Assembly (NCBI GenBank): GCA_025359265.1
Contig: JANYHB010000002.1
Span: 1-64,000, forward strand
Reading direction: 5' to 3'
Length of the DNA stretch: 64,000 nt
Source: Hyphomicrobiales bacterium
Lineage (GTDB): Bacteria; Pseudomonadota; Alphaproteobacteria; Rhizobiales; Aestuariivirgaceae
Below, piece by piece: positions 25,472-31,242 of this stretch. The notes below the pieces were generated by a model. That model searched no databases and was not told where the DNA came from. It saw only the letters and a program-made list of their open reading frames with translations. Each line of letters opens with the position of its first letter. Positions within the stretch are counted from its first letter, which is position 1. The translations under genes and the position numbers were made by a program.

Positions 25472-25627
25472 TTATGGGCAGTTGATGGTGCAAACCAAGG
25501 CATCAGCCTTCATCGCTTGCACGGTGGTGAAGCCCGCAACCGCACCACTCATAATTGTAAGGCCAACAAGACCCAACAACACCCGACGCAAAAATTTCGC
25601 ATCGGCTTTTACACTCACTGAATTCAT
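25472..25627 (-). CDS. 51-residue hypothetical membrane or secreted protein
   Basis: This short gene reads MNSVSVKADAKFLRRVLLGL and continues with a glycine-rich hydrophobic segment, then QAMKADALVCTINCP. It has a positively charged N-terminus, one membrane-type segment (about residues 17-34) and two cysteines near the C-terminus. A strong ribosome binding site (GGGGGA) lies 5 bases before the ATG, and the gene ends at a terminator shared with the convergent neighbour. Both points make it likely to be real. No family was recognised. Confidence 0.6.
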   Translation of the reverse strand: MNSVSVKADAKFLRRVLLGLVGLTIMSGAVAGFTTVQAMKADALVCTINCP

Positions 25628-25741
25628 TAAATTCCCCCGGGTATTTACGCCTACCCATTCTTCACGAGAACGGAGCCTAGCGGCGAAAGGTTCTCATAAG
25701 GTAAAAAAACAATTCCGCAAATACCAAAACGTTTATTAAAG

Positions 25742-27148
25742 TTAATGTTGCCGAATATCAACAAAATGGCCCGCCAGCGCTGCCGCAGCGGCCATGCGCG
25801 GGGAAACCAGATGTGTGCGGCCTTTGTAACCCTGCCTGCCTTCAAAGTTCCGGTTTGAGGTGGAAGCAGCGCGTTGGCCGGGTTTTAATTGGTCTGGGTT
25901 CATGGCCAGGCACATGGAACAGCCGGGTTCGCGCCATTCAAAGCCTGCGGCTTTAAAAATCGCGTCGAGGCCTTCTTCTTCAGCCTGTTGCTTCACCAGG
26001 CCAGAGCCAGGAACGATCATGGCATAGGCTAAACGCTCAGAAACCTTTTTGCCGCGCACCACGTCAGCAACGGCGCGCAAGTCTTCAATGCGGCCATTGG
26101 TGCAAGAGCCAATCCACACCACGTCAAGGCCAATGTCGGTGATTTTCTGGCCAGCTTTCAGGCCCATATATTCCAGAGCGCGGATTTTAGACTCGCGTTT
26201 GCCTTCATCGGAGATGAGATCAGGGTTCGGCACGCTGCCATCAACGGCCACCACATCTTCAGGCGACGTGCCCCAAGATACAATGGGTGGCAGGTTGGCG
26301 GCATCAAGCGCGATGACTGAGTCGAAATGCGCGCCGCCATCGGTTTTCAGCGTGTCCCAGTATTGGCGGGCCGCATCCCATGCAGCACCGGCAGGTGCCA
26401 TGGGCTTGCCGTGCAGATAGGCATAGGCCTTTTCATCTGGGGCAATCATGCCAGCGCGGGCACCGCCCTCAATCGTCATATTGCAAACCGTCATGCGGCC
26501 TTCCATCGAAAGGTCGCGGATCGCTTGGCCCGCAAACTCGATCACATGGCCCGTGCCGCCCGCCGTGCCAATTTTACCGATAATGGCAAGGATGATGTCT
26601 TTGGCGCTTGAATGCGCCGCAAGCTTATTATCCACCTGCACCAGCATGTTCTTGGCTTTTTTCTGGATCAGCGTTTGCGTGGCCAAAACATGCTCCACCT
26701 CCGAGGTGCCGATGCCATGCGCCAGTGCCCCGAAAGCGCCATGTGTAGAGGTGTGGCTGTCGCCGCACACAATGGTGGTGCCGGGCAAGGTGAAGCCCTG
26801 CTCTGGCCCAACCACGTGCACAATGCCTTGGCGCTTATCCATTTCATTGAAATAGGGAACGCCGAATTCTTTCGCATTGGCAGCCAGGGTTTCCACCTGA
26901 ATGCGGCTCTCAGGCTCAGCTATGCCCTTGGAGCGATCCGTTGTCGGAACGTTATGATCAACAACAGCGAGCGTTTTCTCAGGATGGCGCACTTTGCGCC
27001 CCGTCATGCGCAAGCCTTCAAAGGCCTGCGGGCTTGTCACTTCATGCACTAGGTGGCGATCAATATAAAGCAAGCACGTGCCATCTGCCGCCTCATGGGC
27101 CACATGATCATCCCAGATCTTGTCGTATAAGGTACGTGCTTTAGACAT
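25742..27148 (-). CDS. leuC: 3-isopropylmalate dehydratase large subunit LeuC
   Basis: LeuC is the iron-sulphur subunit of isopropylmalate isomerase in leucine synthesis. The three cluster cysteines are in GSCTNG (about residue 347) and CSMCLAMN (about 407-410); the [13 protein letters not shown] motif is intact. The 468-residue start at 27148 is preferred over an ATG one codon earlier because a second, degenerate copy of this start region at 28.7 kb keeps only this ATG. AGGA lies 8 bases upstream. leuD lies two genes downstream. Confidence 0.95.
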
Positions 27149-27283
27149 CATCGAATTCCTGAAGTTAGAGGCTATTTAGCGTCTGCGGCCAAGCTGTCAA
27201 ATGTTCCCGCGTCAAGGCTGGAAGGCCCGCGCGGCATGGCCGACCCTTGCAAGAAAAGCCGCCCATTCCTATGTGTACAAGTT

Positions 27284-27967
27284 ATGACCAGTTTCACAGT
27301 TTCAGGGATGACCTGCGCCGGCTGCGCAAAAAAGGTTGAAAACACGCTTCACGCGCTGGCGCCTTCTGCCACCGTCACCCTCAATCCGCCACGTGTGCAA
27401 ATGGCTGAGGCGGTGCCGCTGGCACAACTGAATGCCGCCCTGTCGAAGATTGGAAACTATAGCGTCGCGGTGGATGTGCCGGTTGCCGAAACATTTGTTG
27501 ATCCCGCCCCATCCGGCTGGCTGCAAACTTACTATCCGTTGCTCCTGGTCATCGGCCTCATTGCTGTTGCGTCCGCTGCCGGGCCGGATTGGATGGGCAA
27601 CTTCATGGCTGGCTTCTTCATTGTTTTTGGCGCTTTCAAGCTTCTTGATGTGCCCGGTTTTGCCGATGCTTATGCCCGCTATGATGTGATCGCCAAACGC
27701 TTCAAGCTTTGGGGTTTTGCTTACCCTTTTGTCGAAACCGTGTTGGGCCTGGCCTTCCTGTTCCATGTTCAGCCCAAAGTGACGCTCTGGGCAGCACTGA
27801 TAGTGAGCCTTGTGGGGGCCGTCGGGGTAATCCAAACCAATCTGCGCAAGCAAACCATCCAATGCGCCTGCCTTGGCGCGGTCATCAAATTGCCCATGTC
27901 TGTGGTGACGATCGTGGAGAGCCTAGGCATGGCCGCGATGGCCATCTGGATGTTGTTCACACGCTGA
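27284..27967 (+). CDS. Heavy-metal-associated domain fused to a MauE/DoxX-like membrane domain
   Basis: The 227-residue product starts with an HMA domain whose metal site is GMTCAGCAKKV, followed by four membrane segments (about residues 85-225) like those of the methylamine-utilisation protein MauE and MerT/MerC-type transporters, with a CAC cysteine pair in IQCACLGAVIK. It could pass a soft metal ion such as copper or mercury across the inner membrane, but the direction is not known. The ATG at 27284 is preferred; an open frame extends upstream to 27236. It is followed after 15 bases by the DUF305 gene. Confidence 0.75.
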   Translation: MTSFTVSGMTCAGCAKKVENTLHALAPSATVTLNPPRVQMAEAVPLAQLNAALSKIGNYSVAVDVPVAETFVDPAPSGWLQTYYPLLLVIGLIAVASAAGPDWMGNFMAGFFIVFGAFKLLDVPGFADAYARYDVIAKRFKLWGFAYPFVETVLGLAFLFHVQPKVTLWAALIVSLVGAVGVIQTNLRKQTIQCACLGAVIKLPMSVVTIVESLGMAAMAIWMLFTR

Positions 27968-27982
27968 CGAAGGAACCTCGAC

Positions 27983-28588
27983 ATGCTCAAACTTTCCCAT
28001 CTTGCTATGGTGCTGGCCTGCGCTGCCACACTGGCCGAAACGGCGGATTTTGCCAAAGCCGCATCTGGTTCGGACAAGGCTTATGCCGCCGCCATGGATC
28101 AGATGATGCACGCCATAATGAAACCCGCCACCGGAAAGCCAGACCTTGATTTCGTCACCGGCATGATTCCGCATCATGAAGGCGCTGTGGCCATGGCCAA
28201 GGTCGAGAAAAAATTCGGCAATGACCCGGAAATGTTGCGGCTCGCTGATGCCGTCATTGCCGCGCAAACGAGCGAAGTAACCGTGATGAAAGGCTGGCTG
28301 GCCAACAAGAAACTGTCCACCGCTGCCGCTGACCCCGCCTCAAAAACCGCCTCGTCCACCGCCATGGACACGATGATGAAAAACATGAAGGCCTCCGCCA
28401 CGGGCAATGCCGACATTGATTTTGCCAAGGGCATGATTCCGCACCATCAGGGCGCTGTCGACATGGCCCAGGCCGAATTGAAATACGGCGCCGATACCGA
28501 CGTCAAGAAATTGGCGCAAGGCGTGGTTGACTCACAAACCAGGGAAATTGCCCAAATGAACGCCTGGCTCATCGCCCATGGCGGATAA
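27983..28588 (+). CDS. DUF305-family secreted protein with two repeats
   Basis: A 201-residue exported protein: an N-terminal signal segment (cleavage about AKA|AS) and two copies of the DUF305 signature, FVTGMIPHHEGAVAMAK (about residue 56) and FAKGMIPHHQGAVDMAQ (about 139). The Met/His residues in DUF305 proteins such as CopM bind copper or silver. Lying 15 bases after the HMA-MauE gene, it is most likely its periplasmic metal-binding partner. The specific metal is inferred, not shown. Confidence 0.82.
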   Translation: MLKLSHLAMVLACAATLAETADFAKAASGSDKAYAAAMDQMMHAIMKPATGKPDLDFVTGMIPHHEGAVAMAKVEKKFGNDPEMLRLADAVIAAQTSEVTVMKGWLANKKLSTAAADPASKTASSTAMDTMMKNMKASATGNADIDFAKGMIPHHQGAVDMAQAELKYGADTDVKKLAQGVVDSQTREIAQMNAWLIAHGG

Positions 28589-28613
28589 ATCCACCGCTTG
28601 ATTTCAGCATTGC

Positions 28614-28643
28614 AAAAAACAAAGGCCAGTCTCACAACTGGCC
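28614..28643 (-). terminator. Duplicate copy of the rplS terminator
   Basis: On the minus strand GGCCAGT and ACTGGCC pair around a six-base loop, followed by T-rich sequence (TTTGTTTTTTGC). It is nearly identical to the terminator of rplS at 29.8 kb and is part of the chimeric scar 28625-28775. Confidence 0.75.
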
Positions 28644-28775
28644 TTCAAAAACTCGAAATCAGAAATACTTACGCGGCAGAAGCCAAGATCTTTTTGGCGT
28701 GCTCAACCCACATTTTGTCACATAAGGTACGTGCTTTGGACATATCGAATTCCTGAATTGGGAGGCTATTTAGCG
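28625..28775 (-). pseudogene. Chimeric scar: rplS 3' end joined to leuC 5' end
   Basis: Bases 28625-28711 repeat the end of rplS and its terminator (29832-29918) with about four mismatches in 87; bases 28712-28775 repeat the leuC start and upstream region (27116-27181) with more differences. On the minus strand this gives a 24-codon frame (28669-28743): [20 protein letters not shown] and four more residues, that is, the LeuC N-terminus fused in frame to the L19 C-terminus. The junction falls in a short similarity (GACAA followed by TGGG) shared by both genes. It is a recombination remnant; whether the small frame is translated is unknown. Confidence 0.8.
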
Positions 28776-28817
28776 AAAGCAGCGCTTGAGTCAAAGGGGC
28801 TGGATCACAGGTGGTCT

Positions 28818-29309
28818 ATGCGCAAAGATAAGCCCATGACATTTGAAATCCGCCCAATGCGGCTCCAAGAATCTGGCGCAGTTGCCCAGCTCTTTCACGA
28901 CGTATGGCATGAAACACAAGCAAAACTGCAAGACCCGCGGAAAGCGGCCATTCGTGGATATGGCTTCTTCAAAGGGCGCATCGACATGCCAGAGGTTCGA
29001 ACTCTGGTTGCGCTGAAAGAAGGCCAAATCATTGGCTTTGCGCGATGGTCGCCCGGCCATCTTCATAGCCTCTTCGTTGACCAAGGCCAGCGTGGCAGGC
29101 GCGTCGGCGAAAAACTGTGTGAAGTTGTCGTGGCGACCAATCACGACGAAGGCGGCGGCCAACTGCAACTTGAATGTGTTGAAGGAAACCGGGCAGCGCG
29201 GCGCTTCTATGAACGGCAGGGTTGGCGCGTGAGTGAAACCATCGACAGTATTGACGAGACATCCGAAGGCCAGATTGTCGTGCGACATTGGGTGATGCTG
29301 CGGCGGTAA
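28818..29309 (+). CDS. GNAT-family N-acetyltransferase
   Basis: The product (about 163 residues) is a GNAT enzyme: the acetyl-CoA loop reads DQGQRGRRVGEKL (the Q/RxxGxG/A motif), and the final strand-helix carries NRAARRFYERQGWRV. The substrate is unknown. Starts at 28818 (MRKDKP) or 28836 (MTFEIRP) are both possible. It lies in the accessory interval between the leuC/rplS scar and rplS, which suggests it is not part of the conserved core of the region. Confidence 0.78.
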   Translation: MRKDKPMTFEIRPMRLQESGAVAQLFHDVWHETQAKLQDPRKAAIRGYGFFKGRIDMPEVRTLVALKEGQIIGFARWSPGHLHSLFVDQGQRGRRVGEKLCEVVVATNHDEGGGQLQLECVEGNRAARRFYERQGWRVSETIDSIDETSEGQIVVRHWVMLRR

Positions 29310-29411
29310 CATTTTCAGCTGTTGGTCTTGCAAAGCTTCCTGAAGACGATCTTAAATCTGCCATTCTTCAAGCGTAAGGCTGAATTAGCACCAACCAATG
29401 AATTGGCAAAA

Positions 29412-29813
29412 ATGTTTAATTCTCTCATTCCGCAACTGCTGCTGGTTTTAACCTTGACGGTGCCGACAGCCGCTTTCGCCCAACTCGAAAATAGCGCCCC
29501 CGAAGAGGCAACCTCCGCCGTATTGAATGCTGGTTCAACGGCCAATCAAATCCATCATTTGCGCCAAGTGCCATCTGTTGGAGTGATTTATGTTGACGAC
29601 CGCTATGCTTCCCCATTGAGCCGTGCCGGAGAGGAAGGAAGATCGCTGGGTATTTATGCCGAACGCAATGCTGCCGGTGTCACAAAATTGCGCCGCGCAC
29701 TGCAAAGCAACCCTGTGACGAGGCGCGCAATAGCCGAACATGGCATTAATTTGCGCCAGGTTATTGGGGTGTCAATCGGAACCACGGGCTCGCTTAGATT
29801 TTTTATCGGATAG
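29412..29813 (+). CDS. Hypothetical secreted protein
   Basis: The 133-residue frame starts with a good signal peptide (MFNSLIPQLLLVLTLTVPTA, cleavage about AFA|QL). The mature part has no cysteine or membrane segment and no family was recognised; it contains a VIYVDDRYASPLSRAGE region and ends RFFIG. The frame is open further upstream from a TTG at 29322, but the signal peptide argues for the ATG at 29412. It ends 10 bases before the rplS terminator, to which it runs opposite. Confidence 0.55.
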   Translation: MFNSLIPQLLLVLTLTVPTAAFAQLENSAPEEATSAVLNAGSTANQIHHLRQVPSVGVIYVDDRYASPLSRAGEEGRSLGIYAERNAAGVTKLRRALQSNPVTRRAIAEHGINLRQVIGVSIGTTGSLRFFIG

Positions 29814-29823
29814 CGAGGCGTCT

Positions 29824-29850
29824 AAAAAAAAGCCAGTCTCACAACTGGCC
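29824..29850 (-). terminator. Rho-independent terminator of rplS
   Basis: Reading leftwards, GGCCAGT and ACTGGC(T) form the stem with a TGTGAG-type loop, followed by eight T residues. It ends the ffh-rpsP-rimM-trmD-rplS transcription block and is present in a second copy at 28614-28643. Confidence 0.9.
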
Positions 29851-29875
29851 TTCAAAAACTCGAAATCAGAAATAC

Positions 29876-30493
29876 TTACGCGACAGAGGCCAAAATCTTT
29901 TTGGCGTGCTCAACCCACTTGTCTTTCTTGCTGCGGCCCTTCAGGCCCAGTTTTTCGTCAAGCGAAAACAATTGCTCATCGCTCATTTCAGCAATCTGCT
30001 TCACCGAGGTGATGCCTTCGGCCACCATCTGTTCACGCACCTTGGGGCCAACGCCGCCGAGATGTGACACGTCATCAAAAGCCACTTGCACCTTTTCGTG
30101 ATGCACTTCTGCAACGGCTGCCAAATCTTCGCGGTTGGTTTGCTTTTCGGTGATGCGGGCGGCTTTGCCCGTAAGACCCTTGAGGTAATACAACTTGGCC
30201 CGGCGCACCTTGCCGCGACGCACCAGCTTCACGGAATCAATCAGCGGCGAATACATCGGGAAAATGCGCTCAACGCCTTCGCCATAGGAAAGCTTGCGCA
30301 CCGTGAAGCTTTCATTGAGGCCGCCGCCACTGCGCGAAATGCACAAGCCTTCATAAGCTTGCACGCGGGTGCGTTCACCTTCAACAACCTTAACATTCAC
30401 AATCACCGTGTCGCCGGGGGCGAAATCGGGAAGTTGGCGCTTGGCGGCAACAATGGCCATCTGCTCTTTTTCAAGCTGCGCGATAATATTCAT
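29876..30493 (-). CDS. rplS: Ribosomal protein L19 with a C-terminal helix-hairpin-helix-like extension
   Basis: The first 115-120 residues are a normal L19 (bL19), with the [13 protein letters not shown] and [27 protein letters not shown] (in parts: [26 protein letters not shown]) signatures; L19 sits at the 30S-50S interface. A further 80 or so residues follow, with [20 protein letters not shown] and a [13 protein letters not shown] stretch, the pattern of a helix-hairpin-helix fold found at the end of L21 in some alphaproteobacteria. The start at 30493 ([10 protein letters not shown]) is the family start. It is the last gene of the trmD operon. Confidence 0.93.
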
Positions 30494-30549
30494 GGGGGCA
30501 ATCCTGTTCTTCGAAGTTGTGGGGCTTAAACTGCAAGGTGGGGGAAATG

Positions 30550-31242
30550 TCAAGTTTTGCGCTTGACATATTTATCCCACAAATCCGGGCGGCGCCGCTG
30601 GGTTATGTCGGCGCGCTGCTGGGCCTTCCACTTGGCTATCGCGCGATGATCGCCAGAGTGAAGAATCGATGGAATTTCAATGCCTTCGAAGGTGTTGGGC
30701 TTGGTGTAATGCGGCTGTTCCAGCAGCCCGTCTTCAAAACTTTCCTCCGCATGGGATTGCTCGTGCCCCATCACCCCGGGCAGAAGCCTGATCACGCCGT
30801 CCAGCAGAACCAGCGCCGCAGGCTCACCGCCGGAAAGCACATAGTCGCCGATAGACACTTCTTCCAGGCCCCGTTGGTCAATGACACGCTGGTCAATGCC
30901 CTCAAAGCGCCCGCAGATGATCATGCAACCACCGCCCGCCGCGAGATCGCGCACCTTGGCTTGCGTCAGCGGCGCACCGCGCGGCGACATCAGCAAACGC
31001 GGGCCTTTGTGTGGTGTGCCATCAATGGCGCGTGCCAGAATATCCGGCTTCAATACCATGCCGGCACCACCGCCTGCCAAATGATCATCCACTGTGCGAT
31101 GCTTGTCTGTGGCGAAAGACCGAATATCCACCGCCTCATAAGACCACGTGCCCTCACGCAACGCCTTGCCCGCCAGAGACAAGCCCAGCGTGCCCGGAAA
31201 CATGTCGGGGAACAGCGTGAGTATGGTGGCGTGGAAGGGCAC
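30550..31242 (-). CDS. trmD: tRNA (guanine-N1)-methyltransferase TrmD
   Basis: TrmD methylates G37 next to the anticodon of tRNAs reading CNN-type codons and prevents frameshifting. The 230-residue SPOUT enzyme has the trefoil-knot elements [28 protein letters not shown] and [11 protein letters not shown]. It lies between rimM and rplS in the usual order; a REP-like repeat is inserted between rimM and trmD. Confidence 0.96.

Follow-up and report, generated by a model that had tools for sequence, protein, structure and literature searches.

A minimal mobile element is conceived without an integrase or a transposase of its own. As outlined for Neisseria in PMC3082526, which cites Saunders and Snyder 2002 and Snyder 2007 on this point, it consists of two conserved genes between which different whole-gene cassettes are found, incorporated by homologous recombination. 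A related behaviour is reported for the T6SS effector-immunity modules of Vibrio cholerae, in the part of PMC5361080 devoted to their accretion: a new cassette is placed beside the old one, displaced remnants are kept, and homology-facilitated illegitimate recombination is the mechanism proposed. The latter is presented, in the sections of PMC3240628 concerned with it, as a laboratory process. Merodiploids generated by transformation in Streptococcus pneumoniae are attributed, in the portion of PMC3784515 dealing with them, to alternative pairing and to unequal crossing-over between repeats, leading to duplications with a hybrid join. Two-variant loci and flanking repeats are among the topics of PMC2884548.

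Accessory genes lacking recombinases of their own enter and leave the gaps between core genes, and the step which places two alternative cassettes side by side is seldom caught. The locus described here was found in a window of 64,000 nucleotides, the whole stretch of DNA analysed, belonging to a draft genome of 73 contigs (G000). Between the core genes leuC and rplS it carries two sets of cargo genes, A and B, separated by a short fusion of the two flanking genes. The explanation to which we assign a probability of about 0.7 is that an A-allele and a B-allele of one cargo site were merged by a homologous crossover combined with an illegitimate join.

Organization of the leuC-rplS interval

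leuC and rplS both lie on the minus strand, about 2.7 kb apart, with four cargo genes between them. In plus-strand order the gap contains an HMA+MauE gene and a DUF305 gene (segment A), the join, and then a GNAT gene and a gene for a small secreted-type protein (segment B). The left flanking gene, leuC (25742..27151), is an intact open reading frame, whose product shares 90-92% amino acid identity with those of the relatives G019, G027 and G033, the G033 gene being partial and ending at a contig end. The right flanking gene, rplS (29876..30493), recognized by the Pfam model Ribosomal_L19, is also intact. It encodes an L19 protein with a C-terminal extension of about 85 amino acids (29876-30120), which gives a weak match, below cut-off, to the helix-hairpin-helix model PF14520; tblastn matches reach into the extension in some genomes of the genus and end near residue 120 in others.

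The first gene of segment A (27287..27967, plus strand) matches the Pfam models HMA and MauE, has an orthologue with 67% amino acid identity at the same site in G027, and is probably involved in copper handling. The second (27983..28588, plus strand) matches Pfam DUF305 and, above cut-off, NCBIfam CopM, so that segment A as a whole looks like a copper-handling unit with a CopM-type metallochaperone. This gene includes an internal duplication of 134 nt with 73% identity (28086-28489), and the CopM model matches two stretches of it. Away from leuC and rplS, MauE-type genes adjoin DUF305 genes in other families of the order (L217, L222, L228, L234), so that the two genes of segment A look like a metal-handling module which recurs.

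In segment B, the GNAT acetyltransferase gene (28836..29309, plus strand) was assigned by Pfam and occupies this site in G019 and in G033 as well. The same holds for the position of the second gene (29412..29813, plus strand), which also occurs elsewhere in 18 genomes; its product has no NCBIfam hit, all its Pfam matches are below threshold, and it is termed secreted on account of a putative signal-like N-terminus, judged by eye. Neither integrase nor transposase was found among the open reading frames and Pfam matches of the four cargo genes, and no known RNA element reached the gathering threshold in 25500-31000.

Structure of the join

The join is a sequence of about 150 bases in which the end of rplS is fused to the start of leuC, both on the minus strand. 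Its rplS half (28617..28711), comprising the last rplS codons, the stop, the 3' UTR and a terminator-like site with its fold, was aligned by a repeat search to 29824..29918, with 95% identity over 95 nt. Its leuC half (28700..28775) comprises the first codons and the leader of leuC and was aligned by the same search in two stretches, 28700-28743 to 27105-27148 at the leuC start (84%) and 28744-28775 to 27150-27181 in the leader (91%). A whole-genome search with 28600-28800 led to the same two parental regions, at 29824..29918 and 27105..27181: apart from the query itself, it detected only the end of rplS, with an E of 3.7e-37, and the start of leuC, with an E of 3.7e-18 and 86% identity over 77 nt; chance is excluded as the source of either half. 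The original prediction, that the left part copies the 3' end and terminator of rplS and the right part the start of leuC with its upstream bases, is confirmed by these alignments, and the copy runs on as far as the leuC promoter. The longest exact runs between join and parents measure 51 bp on the rplS side and 16 bp on the leuC side. Divergence from the parents amounts to 11/77 positions in the leuC half and 5/95 in the rplS half (Fisher p 0.063), a difference which could be due to chance, to different histories or to conversion on the rplS side.

The crossover was also expected to fall in a short similarity between the two genes, and it does: the pattern GACAAG(ATC)TGGG[A/T]TGA[T/G]CA occurs both where leuC starts and where rplS ends. 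At the crossover the parents have four identical bases (TGGG), and the longest run within the 20-column match is of six (GACAAG). The score of this similarity was reached by 189 of 5000 mononucleotide shuffles and by 284 of 5000 codon shuffles; it is modestly above chance, and weak evidence when taken alone.

An assembly artefact, the misjoining of two strain alleles, might be suspected in a draft genome, where a mixture of strains carrying A and B alleles is conceivable. It is highly improbable, since six bases, the longest run shared by the parents there, are too few to act as an assembly overlap, both genuine copies differ from the join, also at conserved LeuC residues, and the join lies well inside a contig of 172 kb. 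Site-specific integration was rejected in view of the lack of an integrase in the four cargo genes and of the two different flanking genes copied in the two halves. A plain tandem duplication was rejected as well, because no long repeat links segments A and B; that it would not suffice had been stated in the original prediction.

The same interval in related genomes

The comparison was extended to a sample of 37 genomes of the genus, including G000, several of which are incomplete or broken between leuC and rplS; they represent different species, and the source species is represented by one genome. The two genes lie within 3 kb of each other in at least 14 of the 37, four with an empty gap and ten, the window included, with cargo. 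They are found on different contigs in most of the other genomes, and G032, in which rplS is not upstream of leuC, was left out of the counts. The gap is shorter than 300 bp and holds no gene in G003, G004, G015 and G020. G027 is A-only, with the order leuC-HMA-MauE-rplS, while G019 and G033 are B-only, with the order leuC-secreted-GNAT-rplS. Other cargo consists of a DUF1287 protein together with a RES/Xre-MbcA-ParS toxin-antitoxin pair in G024 (L041 2351-3831), and of a methyltransferase in G005, G013, G014, G016 and G026; a cargo protein of 398 amino acids in G016 has no Pfam hit. The suggestion that the interval is a hot spot for accessory genes agrees well with these ten cargo-bearing gaps and with the several unrelated kinds of cargo which they contain. 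In other families of the order the same linkage is present in 14 of 24 genomes, and in eight of these 14 the matched stretches are over 1 kb apart.

HMA-MauE matches occur in five of the 37 genomes, close ones only in G000 and G027 (E 1e-94), followed by G034 (6e-15, 34% identity). GNAT matches are present in 26, close only in G000, G019 and G033 (E 8e-37, 3e-26), the next being at 4e-7. All the close HMA-MauE and GNAT genes are located between leuC and rplS. Matches to the secreted protein were detected in 21 genomes, in three of them at this site; for the 18 genomes with the gene elsewhere, 17 loci were checked and neither leuC nor rplS was found within about 1.5 kb, and the gap of G026 holds other cargo. 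DUF305 matches are found in 11 genomes. In the ten other than G000 none of them shares a contig with leuC or with rplS; G022, where both of these genes went undetected, is one of the ten. Altogether 155 cargo loci were inspected, namely 80 (the best 80 of 223), 58, and the 17 secreted-protein loci just mentioned; only those of G019, G027, G033 and the window contain leuC or rplS within the flanks used, mostly of 1.5-5 kb, beyond which a farther linkage would escape.

No remnant of the join, searched for as leuC or rplS similarity at E 1e-3, was found in the nine other cargo-bearing intervals, those of G019, G027 and G033 among them, the four empty intervals being too short for this search. The intervals read contain neither a continuous ancestral gene at this place nor the same chimera. 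The window thus carries a chimera, its A-only and B-only relatives fall in a single clade, and no join occurs in the intervals read elsewhere. Relatives limited to one of the two segments had been named as support for a merger, and both kinds were found, as species rather than strains.

Two further features of leuC were noticed. G021 has a second, partial leuC-like stretch, with 48% amino acid identity, about 0.7 kb from the leuC start (L049 1666-1857). In G013, G014 and G008 (L017, L029, L011) the leuC frame extends upstream as a lysine- and alanine-rich sequence and lacks a Met at the usual start, which gives LeuC the look of a protein with a basic N-terminal extension in these genomes. No leuC-rplS case is named in the open-licence literature searched by mechanism, rather than by gene pair or organism.

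Phylogeny and relative age of the join

In trees based on LeuC, RplS and TrmD, the genomes G000, G019, G027 and G033 make up a single clade, supported at 0.994 in FastTree and at 99/98 in IQ-TREE, the latter run on 18 taxa of our choice; the LeuC of G033 is partial. The topology is (G033,(G000,(G019,G027))), with 91/91 for the branch uniting G000, G019 and G027. Forcing the A-carriers together gave a p-AU of 0.027 and forcing the B-carriers together one of 0.033, while the grouping of G000 with G033 was not rejected (p-AU 0.178). Both cargo-based groupings are disfavoured, with AU p-values that are moderate, which indicates that the cargo does not follow the three-gene tree. The GC3 of the cargo roughly tracks that of each host, and for the B proteins the three species are separated by similar distances, with identities of 51-52% for the secreted protein and 37-42% for GNAT; these features suggest a long residence of the cargo in the clade. 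A comparison in 150-bp steps against G019, G027 and G033 revealed no tract of leuC introgressed from a sampled relative.

Against the leuC of its own genome the leuC half of the join scores 105, and the best score among 27 relatives is 77; for the rplS half the corresponding values are 170 with its own rplS and at most 71 with nine relatives. Each half is far closer to the genes of G000 than to those of the relatives compared, so the join postdates the species split and is, in relative terms, young.

These data bear on the possibility that the ancestor of the clade already had the A-join-B arrangement, G027 having lost B through the rplS ends, and G019 and G033 having lost A through the leuC starts. 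The direct repeats which flank B (51 bp exact) and A would permit clean excision, A and B look like old residents, and their distribution conflicts with the tree. An ancestral join should, however, be as distant from the G000 genes as the genes of the relatives are, and it is much closer; gene conversion on both sides would then be needed, yet the repeats on the leuC side share at most 16 exact bp; moreover, no remnant was left in G019, G027 or G033. An ancestral double state is for these reasons considered unlikely.

The join as a possible transcription unit

Read on the minus strand, the join consists of the leuC promoter, the leader, an ATG, 24 in-frame codons, a stop and a terminator made up of a hairpin and a T run. 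The codons form an open leuC-rplS fusion frame (28669..28743, by translation). The putative copied promoter, TTTGAC - 17 nt - TAAATA (28767..28795, minus strand), was recognized by sequence comparison with the genuine leuC promoter (27173-27201), which has the same boxes and spacing, and with the relatives: in 26 of the 27 read, the exception being G009, a TTTGAC box lies upstream of leuC, and a spacer of exactly 17 nt leads from it to TAAATA, TACATA or TAGATA. The spacer differs between the join and the genuine leuC, while boxes and spacing are kept in both, suggesting that the two were working promoters while diverging, that is, belonged to two alleles. In the coding part, the join has Cys and Met in place of the Tyr and Ile of the LeuC motif TLYDKIW; all 30 relatives read retain these two residues, although 27 had been found by a motif demanding them or a close variant. 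Cys and Met here are changes of the kind that would be expected in a dead copy. The join has kept the leuC promoter and the rplS terminator and is otherwise decaying. A consensus scan of 27000-30000 detected two promoter-like sites (1.7 expected) and three terminator-like sites (4.4 expected); it lists the terminator of the join and misses the genuine rplS terminator and both leuC promoters. With counts so near expectation, the scan alone is no evidence.

The promoter comparison is also relevant to a tandem duplication, within one genome, of the block from leuC start through cargo to rplS end, followed by homologous replacement of the cargo in one of the copies. Such a sequence of events yields the exact order observed and the same join, and would explain why each half is closest to the genes of its own genome. 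A source of the A allele is needed anyway, which makes it one step longer than a merger; the missing long repeat between segments A and B weighs against it too, and the kept boxes with their 17-nt spacing, despite the differing spacer, are more in line with two alleles that both functioned than with a single dead copy. It is a doubtful alternative.

A speculative role for the join, to which little confidence is attached, is that of a reversible divider. The rplS half, with its 51 exact bp, and the leuC half would permit excision of B or of A and thereby a return to the A-only or B-only arrangement of the relatives, the species cycling among A, B and A+B, and promoter, 24-codon fusion and terminator would form a small transcription unit insulating the cassettes from each other. 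The repeats would be expected to allow a clean loss of either cassette.

Proposed origin by merger of two alleles

In the favoured merger, the leuC-rplS gap would be a cargo site where one whole gene cassette takes the place of another, and an A allele (HMA-MauE) and a B allele (GNAT and secreted protein) of this site would have met in one cell. One end of the incoming DNA would have undergone homologous recombination in a flanking gene, either leuC or rplS. The other end would have been joined illegitimately, by linking the end of rplS in the A allele with the start of leuC in the B allele at the short similarity GACAAG..TGGG. The product would be leuC - A - [rplS end::leuC start] - B - rplS. 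Which allele came from a donor and which was resident, that DNA was taken up, and that a crossover was coupled to an illegitimate join are points which we infer.

Two features do not fit a simple merger. The first is the order of the B genes, GNAT-secreted in the window and secreted-GNAT, on the same strand, in both B-only species (L035, L036); the reversed order needs another rearrangement. Part of the gap preceding the secreted gene matches the leuC-secreted gap of G033 (none of 300 shuffles as good) and, less closely, that of G019 (4 of 300), and the secreted gene thus seems to have kept its upstream sequence, the GNAT gene having moved. A second join was considered as the cause of the swap and discarded, as the GNAT-secreted gap has no similarity to rplS or to the join (224, 203 and 237 of 300 shuffles as good). 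The second feature is the absence of DUF305 from the A-only relative, G027.

ComEC and DprA families are present in the source genome. Of 14 control genomes, however, 10 and 11 were positive in the same searches, and with matches so frequent in controls their presence says little.

Comparison with known systems

The locus resembles a minimal mobile element in several respects. leuC and rplS flank a variable region; the alternatives between them comprise no cassette, HMA-MauE, secreted+GNAT, DUF1287 with RES/Xre, and methyltransferase, a variation seen between species only; and the cargo genes of the window come without integrase or transposase. As to recombination in the flanks, the cargo conflicts with the three-gene tree, and no recombination tract was found in leuC. 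It differs from a minimal mobile element in that the variation is seen between species, not strains, and in that two cassettes are present at once, split by a fused copy of the flanks.

In the V. cholerae T6SS clusters, as far as PMC5361080 describes them, the effector is displaced and its immunity gene kept; here, in contrast, the frames of both cargos are open and neither flanking core gene has lost any part. The tandem duplications of the S. pneumoniae merodiploids, of about 100-900 kb in the account given by PMC3784515, have the same content on both sides, whereas the two sides differ at this locus. With regard to homology-facilitated illegitimate recombination, the illegitimate join, with four identical bases at the crossover inside a marginal similarity, is like its product, and a product is all that is seen here. 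The merged allele is most likely what this process, as characterized in the relevant part of PMC3240628, is expected to produce.

Since the splice point survives together with relatives carrying single cassettes, the order of events is directly testable within one species. The coexistence of two cassettes and the survival of the splice between them are unusual; compared with the systems above, the locus is a well-supported and modestly novel example of known processes, rather than a new kind of system.
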